From NCBI GenBank assembly GCA_028698585.1, contig JAQVWG010000001.1, positions 245,662 through 302,459 of the forward strand: DNA of 56,798 nucleotides, written 5' to 3'. Positions 16,966-21,063 of the stretch are shown here, piece after piece. A program made the position numbers and the translations under genes. Source of the stretch: Clostridia bacterium. GTDB taxonomy: Bacteria; Bacillota; Clostridia; Christensenellales; CAG-314. Under the pieces are notes generated by a model. That model saw nothing but the letters and a program-made list of their open reading frames with translations. It made no database searches and was not told the DNA's origin. The stretch's first letter is position 1; the number at the start of each line of letters is the position of its first letter.

Positions 16966-17232
16966 TTGTTCGAGAATAACAGTGAGTTGGCAAGGGCTAT
17001 ACGGAAGGACATAGTAGGGGAGCTAGAAGCAATCAATCAATATGATTTGCACTACAATATGACCCAAGACCCCGTACCCAAGGCTATATGGGCTCAGATA
17101 CGAGACGAGGAGAAGGTACACGTGGGTGAATTGATGGTACTACTGACCTATGTGGAACCTAGTGATTACAAGTTTTTTGCCGAGGGCGAGAAGGAGGCAA
17201 AGGAAATAATCAAGGATATCTACAAGAGTTAG
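16966..17232 (+). CDS. Ferritin-like diiron protein (rubrerythrin/encapsulated-ferritin-like)
   Basis: An 88-aa two-helix protein. The start is TTG 16966 behind GAGGAGGT. Helix 1 has GELEAINQY (Glu about 19 and 21); helix 2 has RDEEKVHVGEL with the E-x-x-H iron-ligand pair (about 49 and 52). Short proteins of this pattern form ferroxidase sites at subunit interfaces, as in encapsulin cargo ferritins, and are often mis-annotated as demethoxyubiquinone hydroxylase. No encapsulin shell gene is in the window. It follows mgtE by 54 bases and shares its terminator, so co-transcription is likely. Confidence 0.7.
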   Translation: MFENNSELARAIRKDIVGELEAINQYDLHYNMTQDPVPKAIWAQIRDEEKVHVGELMVLLTYVEPSDYKFFAEGEKEAKEIIKDIYKS

Positions 17233-17283
17233 TGTTCGCAGATAGAGGATGATACATATATCGTTGATATTTCATGATGATGA

Positions 17284-17313
17284 AAAACTGGATAGGTATC
17301 TATCCAGTTTTTT
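17284..17313 (+). terminator. Terminator of the mgtE-ferritin-like unit
   Basis: AAAACTGGATAG (17284-17295) pairs with CTATCCAGTTTT (17300-17311) and runs into T residues. Confidence 0.85.
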
Positions 17314-18042
17314 GCATGTAGAATTGAGTATTGACGATACTTGTCTGTACTGTATAGAATGAGTCTAGTTACTTATGGTTTATCAACCACTCTCGCGCTA
17401 ATGCTGGTATAACAATTATTAACCGTAGCCTGTCAGTGACTAATAGCGCAATTTTCTCATTGTTCTATGCAACCCACCAGTTCAATTATGTCATATCTAC
17501 CCACAATTTAATTATATGTATTAATATTTACTGTCTTTAATAATACTGTTTATTATGTATTAAGCAATCATCCATTTCATTATGCCATATCGTTATTAGT
17601 TATAATAATCCTTAACCATATTCAGTCGTTGATAAATGTAGTTATGTTCTCGTATTATATAAGCAACGCAGTGATTATTCATACCGTATCCCTTGATAGA
17701 TAGGTTGAATGCAGTTGACTTGACCTTATAGGTAGACTCTTGTTATGCTTTATTTACAGCCATAGCAGTTCATTTGGCACCAGTTGAGAAAATGATATTA
17801 GCGTTCAGCAAAGTTAATTTAATGCTTCTTACTTTCACCAGAACAACTAGAGTAGTATGAGCATATACAGCAAGCCAGCCCACACAAGCCGCTTATTTAT
17901 CTTAACAATATTACGTCATTGCATTTACTTCTCTAGGCTATGACTATACGCACAGACACATATAGATTATCCAATATCCATTTTGACCTCATTATTCTAC
18001 TAATATGTACCTTGTAAATAGCATTAAACGATAGTTAAGAAA
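17314..18042. other. Gene-free AT-rich stretch, about 730 bp
   Basis: No believable gene or RNA was found. A loose direct repeat (ttcaattatgtcatatc near 17482 and tttcattatgccatatc near 17575) hints at an old tandem duplication with period about 93. Confidence 0.4.
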
Positions 18043-18074
18043 AATCGAGTCTGACAATACTGTCAAACTCGATT
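18043..18074 (-). terminator. Terminator of the seven-tRNA operon
   Basis: AATCGAGTCTGACA (18043-18056) pairs with TGTCAAACTCGATT (18061-18074) with one G-U. On the minus strand the stem runs into TTTTTC. Confidence 0.85.
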
Positions 18075-18080
18075 ATCTGG

Positions 18081-18160
18081 TGCGGCTAAAGAGATTTGAA
18101 CTCCCACGGTTTCCCACTAGATCCTAAGTCTAGCGCGTCTGCCAATTCCGCCATAGCCGC
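18081..18160 (-). tRNA. tRNA-Leu (anticodon TAG)
   Basis: Acceptor GCGGCTA pairs with TAGCCGC, anticodon loop CTTAGGA (TAG), short type II variable arm, encoded CCA. Confidence 0.92.
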
Positions 18161-18166
18161 ATGTGG

Positions 18167-18239
18167 TACACCTTCAGGGACTCGAACCCTGGACACCCTG
18201 ATTAAGAGTCAGGTGCTCTACCGACTGAGCTAAAGGTGC
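18167..18239 (-). tRNA. tRNA-Lys (anticodon CTT)
   Basis: Acceptor GCACCTT pairs with AAGGTGT (G-U at the first pair), anticodon loop CTCTTAA (CTT), encoded CCA. Confidence 0.92.
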
Positions 18240-18279
18240 ATATTATTGAGACACTCCTAATTGTGTTGTGTCCATTTGG

Positions 18280-18352
18280 TGACCCATCCGCGACTCGAAC
18301 GCGGGACACCATGATTAAAAGTCATGTGCTCTACCGACTGAGCTAATGGGTC
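18280..18352 (-). tRNA. tRNA-Lys (anticodon TTT)
   Basis: Acceptor GACCCAT pairs with ATGGGTC, anticodon loop CTTTTAA (TTT), all stems intact, encoded CCA. Confidence 0.94.
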
Positions 18353-18361
18353 AAACTGTGG

Positions 18362-18433
18362 CAGGGGTGGCAGGATTTGAACCTACGAGTGTCAGAGTCA
18401 AAGTCTGATGCCTTACCGCTTGGCTACACCCCT
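18362..18433 (-). tRNA. tRNA-Gln (anticodon TTG)
   Basis: Acceptor AGGGGTG pairs with CACCCCT, discriminator G, anticodon loop CTTTGAC (TTG), encoded CCA. Confidence 0.93.
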
Positions 18434-18462
18434 AAGTAATGCTAGCAAGATGTATTGTGTGG

Positions 18463-18537
18463 GGTGGGCAATGGGACTCGAACCCACGACTTCCAGAGTC
18501 ACAGTCTGGCACTCTAACCAACTGAGCTACGCCCACC
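18463..18537 (-). tRNA. tRNA-His (anticodon GTG)
   Basis: The anticodon loop is CTGTGAC (GTG). The extra 5' G(-1) at 18537 pairs with discriminator C73, the histidine identity pair. CCA is encoded. Confidence 0.94.
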
Positions 18538-18577
18538 ATACAATATCTGCAAAGACAGGTATATCTGTCATTCGTGG

Positions 18578-18651
18578 CGTGCCTGAAGGGATTCGAACCC
18601 CCGACAACCGGCTTAGAAGGCCGATGCTCTATCCTGCTGAGCTACAGGCAC
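18578..18651 (-). tRNA. tRNA-Arg (anticodon TCT)
   Basis: Acceptor GTGCCTG pairs with CAGGCAC, anticodon loop CTTCTAA (TCT), discriminator G, encoded CCA. Confidence 0.93.
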
Positions 18652-18685
18652 ATGTACAGCTGACAGGCTTAACTTCTTTGCTTGG

Positions 18686-18756
18686 AGCGGGTGATGGGAA
18701 TCGGACCCACAACCACAGCTTGGAAGGCTGTTGTATTACCACTATACTACACCCGC
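18686..18756 (-). tRNA. tRNA-Gly (anticodon TCC)
   Basis: Acceptor GCGGGTG pairs with CACCCGC, anticodon loop CTTCCAA (TCC), discriminator U, encoded CCA. First tRNA of the seven-gene transcript. Confidence 0.94.
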
Positions 18757-18785
18757 GCACAATCTCTGCACAACAACGCCTAAAA

Positions 18786-18814
18786 AGTTTAGCACCATTA
18801 CTAAACTTTGTCAA
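18786..18814 (-). promoter_or_regulatory. Promoter of the seven-tRNA operon
   Basis: On the minus strand TTGACA (18809-18814), 17-base spacer, TAAACT (18786-18791), about 30 bases before tRNA-Gly. Confidence 0.65.
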
Positions 18815-18987
18815 CGAATTACAAGTATTTTTTGTAACTAATAGTCCTTTTTTTGTAAGCGTAAATGGACGAATTGCGCGTTTATGCTGTGAAAATTTGC
18901 CAGTCACTGCGGTAACACATCGCCGTCTATGGGATAAAATGGTAGCATCACACAATCACCACCGACTATCTGCTATCAAGTATAAAA

Positions 18988-19017
18988 TAACGGCTCAAAT
19001 GCGCATTTGAACCGTTA
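18988..19017 (-). terminator. Terminator of the HNH/DGQHR operon
   Basis: TAACGG.TCAAATGC and GCATTTGA.CCGTTA form a long hairpin with one bulged mismatch. On the minus strand TTATTTTAT follows. Confidence 0.7.
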
Positions 19018-19089
19018 CTGGTGGAGCAATGGCAATATAAGTCGATACAAATGTTAAATTGTATTGACTATTTATCACTTTGTACAATA

Positions 19090-20168
19090 TTAGCCTAATG
19101 GATTAAAGTTTTCTGCCCCCAAAGAACGAATCATGTTTGCAGATTTGTTTGCGTAGTGTGTAATATTTGTTCGATCTCTAAAATTCAGCTTACTTTCGCT
19201 GTTATTGAAGAATAACTCTCTTTCTACTCCATATGCAGAAATAAGTTTGCATAAAGTGTCTTCGACGTAAGCGGTATCAAAAGTTCTCCTTAAGTTTATT
19301 GCCCTTTCCCATATGGGTTGTAATAATAGAAGCATATATCGTAGCCCAGCAATTTTTACCGCAACCCCAGCTTCCTTGGGAGATGATGTCGCAAATCTGA
19401 ATCCGGCTACATTTTCCCATGCAGTTAAATATAAACAAATGACTATTACTTTTTCTTCGTTATTCAACAGTCTATCGGATATACCTAAATCTTGTACATG
19501 AGCATTTTTAAGGGCATCCATTATTTGGTCCGCCTTAAACCCTCTAGTGACTTTTTCTGCTCCCATAATTATACGGTTATGTAATGGATAATTGTTATTC
19601 AATTCCGAAATTAGATTATAGTAACTCTTTTCTGTGTCAGACAACATATTAAGTTTCTCTCTAAACCACATTAAAAGATTACCGCTAACCTTTTCCTGCT
19701 TTTCATTGCAACTAACAAAGATTTGTCTGCGTTGATTGAGTGTTGGTTGGATGTAAATTGTGAATCCAATTTCGTATGAGTCATTATCAGAAATAGTCCT
19801 AATGTTCGGTAAAAAGGAATAGAGTCTATGTTGCCCATCCATTACTTCGGCAGCATCTTGATATTGTTCAAACTCTTTATTGGTTTCTGGGAAATCCATA
19901 TAAAACAAGCCATTTATTTCGGGGTAAGGTTTAACTGATAGTTTATTGTCTTTTGTAGCCAATGTCAATGTGTTTGGCAAAATGCCATTTTTACTTTCGG
20001 CATATGTCGCAATATCTTTATGCGTTTCTCGCTTAATGGTCTCTGTGCTTCCTGTGTTGCGCTCATTTCTACATGCGTAGCAAGTTTTACAAGCTTTCTT
20101 GGGTCGGTAGCACCAATATAGCATGTTTGACCATGTTGGATTATTTTTAACAATAGTAATTTTTTCAT
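19090..20168 (-). pseudogene. DGQHR-domain (DndB-like) protein gene, frameshifted
   Basis: The gene starts at ATG 20168 with AGGAG overlapping the stop of the upstream HNH gene. The first 51 codons run to EAQRPLSEKRIK, and the expected continuation DIATYAESKNGILPNT is in another frame. The shift is at an AAA run (20017-20019, minus strand); one extra A would restore a protein of about 359 aa. The signature VMDGQHRLY falls at about residues 109-117 of the joined protein. DGQHR proteins include DndB, the regulator of DNA phosphorothioation, and relate to ParB-like folds. The rest is uncharacterised. This could be a pseudogene, a programmed -1 shift or a sequencing error. It is clearly more AT-rich than its surroundings. 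Confidence 0.75.
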
Positions 20169-20177
20169 TTTAAACTC

Positions 20178-20693
20178 CTAATAGATTTTAATCATTTTAC
20201 TAAAGACGTAGTTAACTTTTGCGCTTTTACACTCGTTACATGTTTCACACAACACTTGATAATTGTTTTCGAGCTCATCGCCTACTAAAACAAATGGGAC
20301 AATATGGTCAACATGAATTCTACTCCACTCAGTGCCTAATTGTTCTCCACAAGCCGCACAAATCCCTTCCTGTTTTTTGTATAATTCTTTTTTAGCTGAA
20401 AGACTGGTATAGCTTGCATTTCGTTGATTTTTTTTCCTTAAATTAGCATTAAGCCATATACTCATGGTTTGACTTTCTTCATCACTGAGCGCAATCCCAA
20501 ATTCTTGCTCAGTTATTAATCGTGCAGTTATGCATTTGTCGTGAGTTTGTCTAAAAAGATTTTGCACTTTCATTTGATATGATGGGTTATTTTTCATTTT
20601 AATGCATAACTTTTTGAACATTGTTAAAAGGACAGTTATTTTGTACTCTTTCTTTATGCTTTCATTGTTCATTAGTTCGTCTATAGAATCCAT
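20178..20693 (-). CDS. HNH endonuclease family protein
   Basis: 171 aa. The C-terminal HNH domain has the zinc pairs CAAC (about 112-115) and CETC (about 149-152), the core HVDHIVPF (His about 127 and 130) and Asn about 143-144. The N-terminal 100 residues are helical and unassigned. It is the first gene of a two-gene operon with the DGQHR gene, whose ribosome-binding site overlaps this stop codon. It is driven by a perfect consensus promoter. An HNH nuclease plus a DndB-like partner, AT-rich and lodged between tRNA genes, suggests a small restriction or defence module (inference). Confidence 0.82.
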   Translation of the reverse strand: MDSIDELMNNESIKKEYKITVLLTMFKKLCIKMKNNPSYQMKVQNLFRQTHDKCITARLITEQEFGIALSDEESQTMSIWLNANLRKKNQRNASYTSLSAKKELYKKQEGICAACGEQLGTEWSRIHVDHIVPFVLVGDELENNYQVLCETCNECKSAKVNYVFSKMIKIY

Positions 20694-20718
20694 GTGTTAT
20701 ACCCCTATATTAGGAACT

Positions 20719-20747
20719 ATTATACATGTAAAAGATATTCTTGTCAA
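20719..20747 (-). promoter_or_regulatory. Perfect consensus promoter of the HNH/DGQHR operon
   Basis: On the minus strand TTGACA (20742-20747), 17-base spacer, TATAAT (20719-20724). The leader is about 20 bases with AGGGG before the ATG. Expected to be strong and constitutive. Confidence 0.8.
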
Positions 20748-20946
20748 TACCTAAATGTGAAACCATACAGTAGTTATATCGAGTAATTAACGCATTATAC
20801 ATTTCACGCAACAACAAAACTGAAAGACCACATTACTAGGCGAAATAGCACTATGGCGTGTGTTTTTTTCGAACGAGTGTGTCGCCGTCAAACTAACGGA
20901 CACAATTAAACGAGTAGACTGAATGAACCATGGTCTGCCCGTTGGA

Positions 20947-20984
20947 TAAAAAGGAAGACCTAAGTCGAACACGACTTAGGTCTT
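20947..20984 (-). terminator. Terminator of tRNA-Ala
   Basis: A 13-bp perfect stem AAGACCTAAGTCG/CGACTTAGGTCTT, with TTTTT four bases downstream on the minus strand. Confidence 0.85.
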
Positions 20985-20990
20985 GGGTGG

Positions 20991-21063
20991 TGGAGATAAG
21001 CGGGGTCGAACCGCTGGCCTCTTGAATGCCATTCAAGCGCTCTACCAACTGAGCTATACCCCC
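20991..21063 (-). tRNA. tRNA-Ala (anticodon GGC)
   Basis: Acceptor GGGGGTA pairs with TATCTCC (two G-U), anticodon loop ATGGCAT (GGC), encoded CCA. A single-gene transcript with its own promoter and terminator. Confidence 0.92.

Follow-up and report, generated by a model that had tools for sequence, protein, structure and literature searches.

The gene for a small HNH nuclease and the gene for a DGQHR-domain protein, which lie side by side in the 56,798-nucleotide stretch of a Clostridia bacterium contig analysed here (the window), are a real, conserved two-gene unit that recurs in other genomes and that we call the dyad. DGQHR proteins have long been known as a poorly understood member of phosphorothioation operons, and a unit that is found across phyla, with an HNH nuclease as its sole partner and in cells without DndC, isolates the function of DGQHR from modification. 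We see about an even chance that the dyad is a DNA-restriction (anti-phage) module of two genes that is rare and spreads horizontally, and in which the DGQHR protein would be an NTP-dependent sensor and the HNH protein the nuclease. Should it prove to restrict phage, it would be one more restriction system based on the ParB/Srx fold, a small and portable one, and it provides a two-gene setting in which DGQHR can be tested directly as an NTP-driven DNA sensor.

A compact HNH-DGQHR unit between tRNA genes

The dyad lies on the minus strand behind a sigma-70-type promoter (TTGACA-17-TATAAT, 12/12 consensus, positions 20719-20747). The HNH gene (20178-20693) is intact and encodes 171 aa, and a gap of 9 nt separates it from the DGQHR gene, which spans 20168 to 19090; profiles confirmed both families of the HNH plus DGQHR/DndB-like operon that an earlier note on this DNA had proposed. 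A terminator-like stem-loop of 15 pairs with a weak T run follows at 19019-18986 (minus strand). On the downstream side stands a tRNA cluster (Leu-Lys-Lys-Gln-His-Arg-Gly, 18078-18756, minus strand) and on the upstream side a tRNA-Ala(ggc) gene (20988-21063, minus strand). The GC content of the HNH and DGQHR genes (0.329 and 0.363) is below the mean of 0.425 (sd 0.019) of the 41 other window ORFs of at least 150 aa, a reference set that includes one spurious ORF overlapping the tRNA genes. Thus, the terminator (as a terminator-like stem), the flanking tRNA genes and the low GC content on which the earlier note had built its case for an acquired cassette were all found again. Another of its signs, the perfect promoter, is real as a promoter; since the neighbouring tRNA-Ala gene has an equally perfect one (21147-21119, minus strand), it is no sign of foreign origin.

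The HNH protein scores over the cut-offs of Pfam HNH (PF01844; E=5e-8, 33.4 bits against 21.4) and HNH_5 (E=3e-7), and it consists of a helical N-terminal part and a zinc-ribbon HNH part. The catalytic D-H-N-N residues and the zinc cysteines (C112, C115, D129-H130, N144, C149, C152 and N153) are invariant in 10/10 sequences, the window's included. When the protein was compared by sequence with solved structures, the catalytic core alone found matches (endonuclease VII, Cas9, McrA), and its predicted model is poor in the catalytic half (pLDDT about 31-43 over residues 131-171). Membership of the Septu or retron PtuB family was ruled out, because the PtuB equivalog scored 21.9 against a cut-off of 150 and because the partner is a DGQHR protein and not a PtuA-type ATPase.

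Beyond the tRNA cluster, the window holds a stretch of about 845 bases (17233-18077) of low GC content with no ORF of 60 aa or more, which sits between that cluster and an ORF at 16966-17232 that looks ferritin-like by eye.

The DGQHR gene of the window is split by a one-base frameshift

The earlier note had overlooked that the DGQHR gene is broken. The true start is at 20168. The N-terminus (19965-20168, minus strand; a 67-aa ORF that bears the QR motif and keeps the frame as far as about 20,020) and the remainder (19090-20124, minus strand; the listed 344-aa ORF, which bears DGQHR and FxxxN) are read in different frames, and the 344-aa ORF begins with 24 or so residues of out-of-frame sequence. 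When the DNA was aligned with that of three relatives, one base proved to be missing near 20,020, which places the frameshift at 20014-20024 (minus strand). All nine relatives described below have a single unbroken frame of 357-360 aa. Programmed frameshifting was rejected, because these relatives are unbroken and because no canonical slippery heptamer was seen by eye.

Since the frame after the break is free of stops and 73% identical to that of relative L003 over 315 columns, the break is recent if it is no assembly error. Being based on one assembly, it may be either a true mutation or a sequencing or assembly error; provided that this base was assembled correctly, the window copy is probably a cassette that has died recently. 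The frameshift thus means that the window copy is probably no working system, and a frame-broken copy is no evidence of present function in its organism.

The 344-aa piece scores over the cut-off of the NCBIfam DGQHR family (TIGR03187; 62.5 bits against 58.85). Because the gene is broken, its two pieces were scored separately, rather than as a whole gene, against Pfam DndB (PF14072): the 344-aa piece reached 28.8, just below the gathering cut-off of 29.1, and the N-terminal piece 14.0. The DpdB equivalog was not reached (20.8 against a cut-off of 300), and PADLOC gave a similarity to DpdB at E=3.4e-5.

The two genes are conserved partners

A scan of the contigs of 84,980 genomes with the window DGQHR protein as query gave at least nine relatives (nine confirmed loci out of 23 pattern matches) that are 49-69% identical to it. 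Their labels include Clostridia, Lachnospiraceae, Alistipes, Bacteroidaceae and Prevotellaceae, and the genomes are gut or rumen MAGs where a source is stated. In 9/9 of them, an HNH gene lies directly upstream on the same strand, with a gap of 1-22 nt, and its product is 33-57% identical to the HNH protein of the window. A further, distant member, L013 (genome G284), was found among 398 genomes of the window's phylum (DGQHR E=7.7e-61; 34% identical to L003). At this locus (L013:944-2622) the order is reversed: the DGQHR gene comes first and the HNH gene follows directly downstream with a gap of 2 nt, its product matching the HNH family profile at E=1.8e-31. The pair is therefore present at 11/11 loci with readable flanks (the window, the nine relatives and L013); L002 (genome G027) was left out of this count, because its contig ends inside the gene and the partner is invisible.

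The partnership also holds when it is viewed from the side of the nuclease. Searching the same 398 genomes with the HNH profile gave 15 genomes at E<=1e-8, and the full length of the protein (positions 1-163 or 1-169, including the helical N-terminal part) was matched in two of them, G000 and G284, which are the same two that have a close DGQHR protein; the other 13 matched the generic HNH core only. Pairwise distances of the HNH and DGQHR proteins correlate (r=0.80, Mantel p=0.0009, n=11); the correlation is modest when L013 is left out (r=0.39, p=0.006), and r is 0.51 (p=0.002) when both L013 and L006 are left out. In the distance set and in the tree described below, the window DGQHR protein is represented by what follows the frame break, preceded by a few out-of-frame residues. 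Near more distant DGQHR proteins, an HNH gene of the dyad family was found at 0/14 loci (L014, L017-L025 and L031-L034, within the available flanks).

The dyad is patchily distributed and probably acquired

The earlier note had allowed for two outcomes that would speak against its reading: that the pair never co-occurs elsewhere, and that it is inherited vertically in its clade. The first is contradicted by the loci described above, where HNH stands beside DGQHR in all nine relatives and in L013, and the second by a distribution that is patchy and not simply vertical. Among 61 genomes (its own and 60 relatives), the pair was found in its own genome and in G027 only, that is, in 1/36 genomes of the same family (absent from 35/36) and 0/24 of the same order. 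Close members alone were counted in wider draws, giving 2/398 genomes of the phylum, 1/391 of the class (its own genome), 1/121 of the family of G284 and 1/393 of the order to which G464, the genome of L009, belongs; the other DGQHR matches in these draws are weak, distant DGQHR proteins. Because it is so patchy, the dyad was probably acquired, as the earlier note had claimed. A phage or plasmid origin was set aside, as the pair had no match in viral contigs or in phage or plasmid collections.

The tRNA cluster itself is kept in genomes of the same family that are without the dyad: either dyad protein was found at 0/24 such loci (L036-L059), within flanks of up to about 1.5 kb, some of them cut by contig ends. 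In L036 (genome G003), the tRNA-Ala gene lies 667 nt from the tRNA-Gly gene with no ORF of more than 52 aa wholly between them; since this tRNA-Ala is on the opposite strand compared with the window, L036 is an approximate empty site only. The same comparison (L036:761-1577, from another genus of the family, against window positions 18683-21063) suggests an inversion near the dyad site, given the strand of tRNA-Ala(ggc).

The DGQHR tree groups the three Bacteroidota sequences together (100/99) and places the four that are labelled Bacillota on its other side, with weakly supported deep forks. Cross-phylum transfer is thus suggested by the patchiness and not proven by the tree. Altogether, the dyad is probably a rare, patchily spread and acquired cassette of scattered gut bacteria from two phyla.

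Some relatives lie among defence genes

The earlier note had proposed to ask whether such pairs sit in defence islands, and the answer is divided: 3/9 relatives do (L003, L008 and L009), while the other six (L004-L007, L010 and L011) and the window have no clear defence island around them. The densest island surrounds L003 (L003:2010-12264), with two ThsB-type (Thoeris-type) TIR genes, a caspase gene, another TIR gene, DUF4062, DUF2971 and an AbiLi-like ATPase gene. L008 has as neighbours a C5 methylase, a type II REase, the PADLOC candidate PDC-S42, a TIR protein and a Fic protein, and L009 has two C5 methylases and a type II REase. Among the remaining relatives, a Schlafen/AlbA_2 gene is near L005, an IS200-type transposase gene about 4 kb from L007 and a BT4734-like gene near L010, and L011 is amid housekeeping genes, as judged by eye. 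L004 (L004:5436-7285) is a second tRNA-adjacent copy of the dyad, with a tRNA-Ser gene about 160 nt downstream.

Phosphorothioation genes were searched for in the carrier genomes. DndC (TIGR03183) was found in 0/11, in agreement with the earlier note, which had seen no dndCDE partner, and an over-cut-off DpdA was likewise found in 0/11. PAPS_reduct matches occur in 4/11 carrier genomes and exceed the cut-off in two, neither of which is the genome of the window.

A predicted ParB/Srx-type sensor and a proposed mechanism

According to the available text of PMC4619093, GmrS and DGQHR domains have in common a QR pair, a DGQ[QH]R motif and an FxxxN motif, and the QR, DGQHR and FxxxN motifs are invariant in 10/10 relatives, L013 included. 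The AlphaFold model of the DGQHR protein of L003 (pLDDT 74, pTM 0.62) has a predicted ParB/sulfiredoxin-type N-terminal part followed by a long helical part. In a VIA-align comparison, 11/11 rows confined to model residues 1-164 were chains of the ParB/Srx superfamily (ParB, Noc, KorB, PadC, sulfiredoxin, SspE and DndI), with Z from 6.4 to 3.2, where a Z below 8 can mean a common arrangement only; SspE (6jiv, Z 4.0) and DndI (9jfl, Z 3.2) matched weakly over residues 4-164. Foldseek gave no match to the model at E<=0.001, so that a ParB/Srx fold of the N-terminal part is likely rather than shown, and a sequence search for solved relatives gave none at E<=10.

Several known systems resemble the dyad. 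DndB and DpdB belong to the same DGQHR family, as seen from the TIGR03187 and PADLOC scores given above. These proteins, however, belong to modification operons, whereas the carriers of the dyad have neither dndC nor an over-cut-off dpdA and the partner is an HNH nuclease; with these genes found in 0/11 carrier genomes and the DpdB equivalog far from its cut-off, membership of Dnd or Dpd was rejected. The Dnd connection of the earlier note thus stands for the shared domain and falls for the dnd machinery, with the window protein itself just under the PF14072 cut-off. GmrSD and BrxU-type type IV enzymes (DUF262 plus DUF1524) combine, as the dyad probably does, a ParB/Srx-type domain bearing a D-G-Q-x-R motif with an HNH-type nuclease, and GmrS and GmrD can exist as distinct proteins like the two of the dyad (both points from the available text of PMC4619093). 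In contrast, the dyad is made of a DGQHR protein (TIGR03187) and a PF01844/HNH_5-type HNH protein, and membership of GmrSD was ruled out, because neither DUF262 nor DUF1524 was matched in Pfam by either dyad protein at E<=1. DndB and GmrSD are discussed in the context of modification systems in the accessible parts of PMC10853773 and PMC12839542.

SspE and DndI are phosphorothioate-sensing DUF262-HNH effectors in which, as far as the available descriptions go, an NTPase sensor is coupled to an HNH nuclease as is proposed here for the dyad: in SspE, recognition of phosphorothioate triggers GTP hydrolysis, which licenses HNH, and DndI couples its NTPase to HNH. They differ from the dyad in being encoded by one gene instead of two, and no carrier of the dyad would mark itself with phosphorothioate by a recognisable Dnd system (DndC in 0/11). 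Finally, the accessible part of PMC12704722 reports ATP and GTP binding by a DndB-like protein and the existence of ParB-CTPase-fold/HNH fusions, with the combination of folds that is likely for the dyad; those fusions are single chains with a Pfam HNH domain, and a two-gene DGQHR-HNH dyad is not described in that part of the text. Our literature search, among sources available in part, found no stand-alone DGQHR-HNH dyad, and an earlier description elsewhere is possible. The combination of a ParB/Srx sensor with an HNH nuclease is already known, and the dyad would build it from different families.

The logic of SspE and DndI, together with the NTP binding of a DndB-like protein, leads us to propose that DGQHR may be an NTP-driven sensor that licenses a separate HNH nuclease. 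The ParB/sulfiredoxin-type nucleotide-binding domain of DGQHR would read the state of DNA, either a modification of base or backbone or its absence; NTP binding or hydrolysis would then bring the HNH protein, which has a gene of its own, into position or license it, and the HNH would nick or cut the target DNA. Such a scheme would follow that of GmrSD, SspE and DndI, divided between two genes and made of different families. Formation of a complex by the two proteins, use of NTP, nuclease activity and the nature of what is sensed are what we infer from these parallels. Since the carrier genomes are without DndC and over-cut-off DpdA, self-marking by Dnd or Dpd is not what is read; the natural alternative would be a structure of the phage or an unusual mark on its DNA. 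Modification-dependent restriction, one of the readings of the earlier note, is a plausible, putative function of the dyad.

Other readings of the pair

The tight two-gene organisation, the nuclease-first order in 9/9 close relatives and the patchy spread could also be those of a toxin-antitoxin-like pair, in which an autonomous, DNA-damaging HNH toxin is restrained by DGQHR until phage attack. We consider this improbable, because the order is reversed in L013 and because the window has an intact HNH gene and promoter next to a broken DGQHR gene, a combination that, with a real frameshift, would not be expected of an autonomous toxin. In that case, an intact HNH gene under a full-consensus promoter beside a broken DGQHR gene is more readily explained by a nuclease that depends on DGQHR than by one that DGQHR restrains; if the base near 20,020 is an assembly error, this argument falls. 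We find it just as improbable that DGQHR regulates the HNH gene, at the level of transcription or otherwise, as DndB does for the dnd operon, and that HNH acts alone, for example in endonuclease VII-like repair or recombination. DndB is reported to repress dnd in a manner modulated by ATP (PMC4507180 and PMC12704722, in their available text), and the HNH region matches structures of T4 endonuclease VII at E=1.2e-6. Such regulation, however, leaves unexplained why this HNH subfamily is obligately paired with DGQHR in both gene orders, and a full-consensus promoter is not obviously a repressed one.

Less probable still is an ordinary selfish or homing-type HNH element that moves with a passenger gene between tRNA-adjacent sites and has no defence function. 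It would account for the patchiness and for the tRNA genes next to the dyad in the window and in L004; yet no integrase was found between the tRNA genes of the window, no direct repeats of note flank the dyad there as marks of insertion and no host gene is interrupted by it, while three of the nine relatives lie in defence islands and no phage or plasmid copies were found. A restriction module with an NTP-dependent DGQHR sensor is the reading that we prefer.

An extension of this restriction reading is more tentative, and we rather doubt it: DGQHR proteins outside Dnd and Dpd might be a broad class of nuclease switches that are gated by nucleotides, acting in trans with HNH in the dyad and in cis with PD-(D/E)xK-like nucleases in larger fusion proteins. 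Together, these would form a new restriction class parallel to that of DUF262 (GmrSD, SspE, DndI and BrxU), which would read another mark or a phage feature in cells without phosphorothioation.

Other arrangements of DGQHR genes

Eight of the distant loci (L018, L020, L021, L022, L023, L031, L032 and L033) encode proteins of about 760 aa with an N-terminal PD-(D/E)xK-like stretch and a central DGQHR domain, the former assigned from an ECK motif seen by eye and from a weak Card1 match in L018. These fusions are a second DGQHR-nuclease architecture, inside restriction-modification loci of the DpnII/Dam type: the gene comes directly after a D12 adenine methylase gene in L018 and after a DpnII enzyme gene in L020, the two loci at which the neighbours were annotated. 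At another distant locus (L034:1477-3459), the gene for a 353-aa DGQHR protein has directly behind it one whose product bears an SGGKDST (PP-loop) motif, which by eye is a true dndB-dndC arrangement, unlike the dyad.
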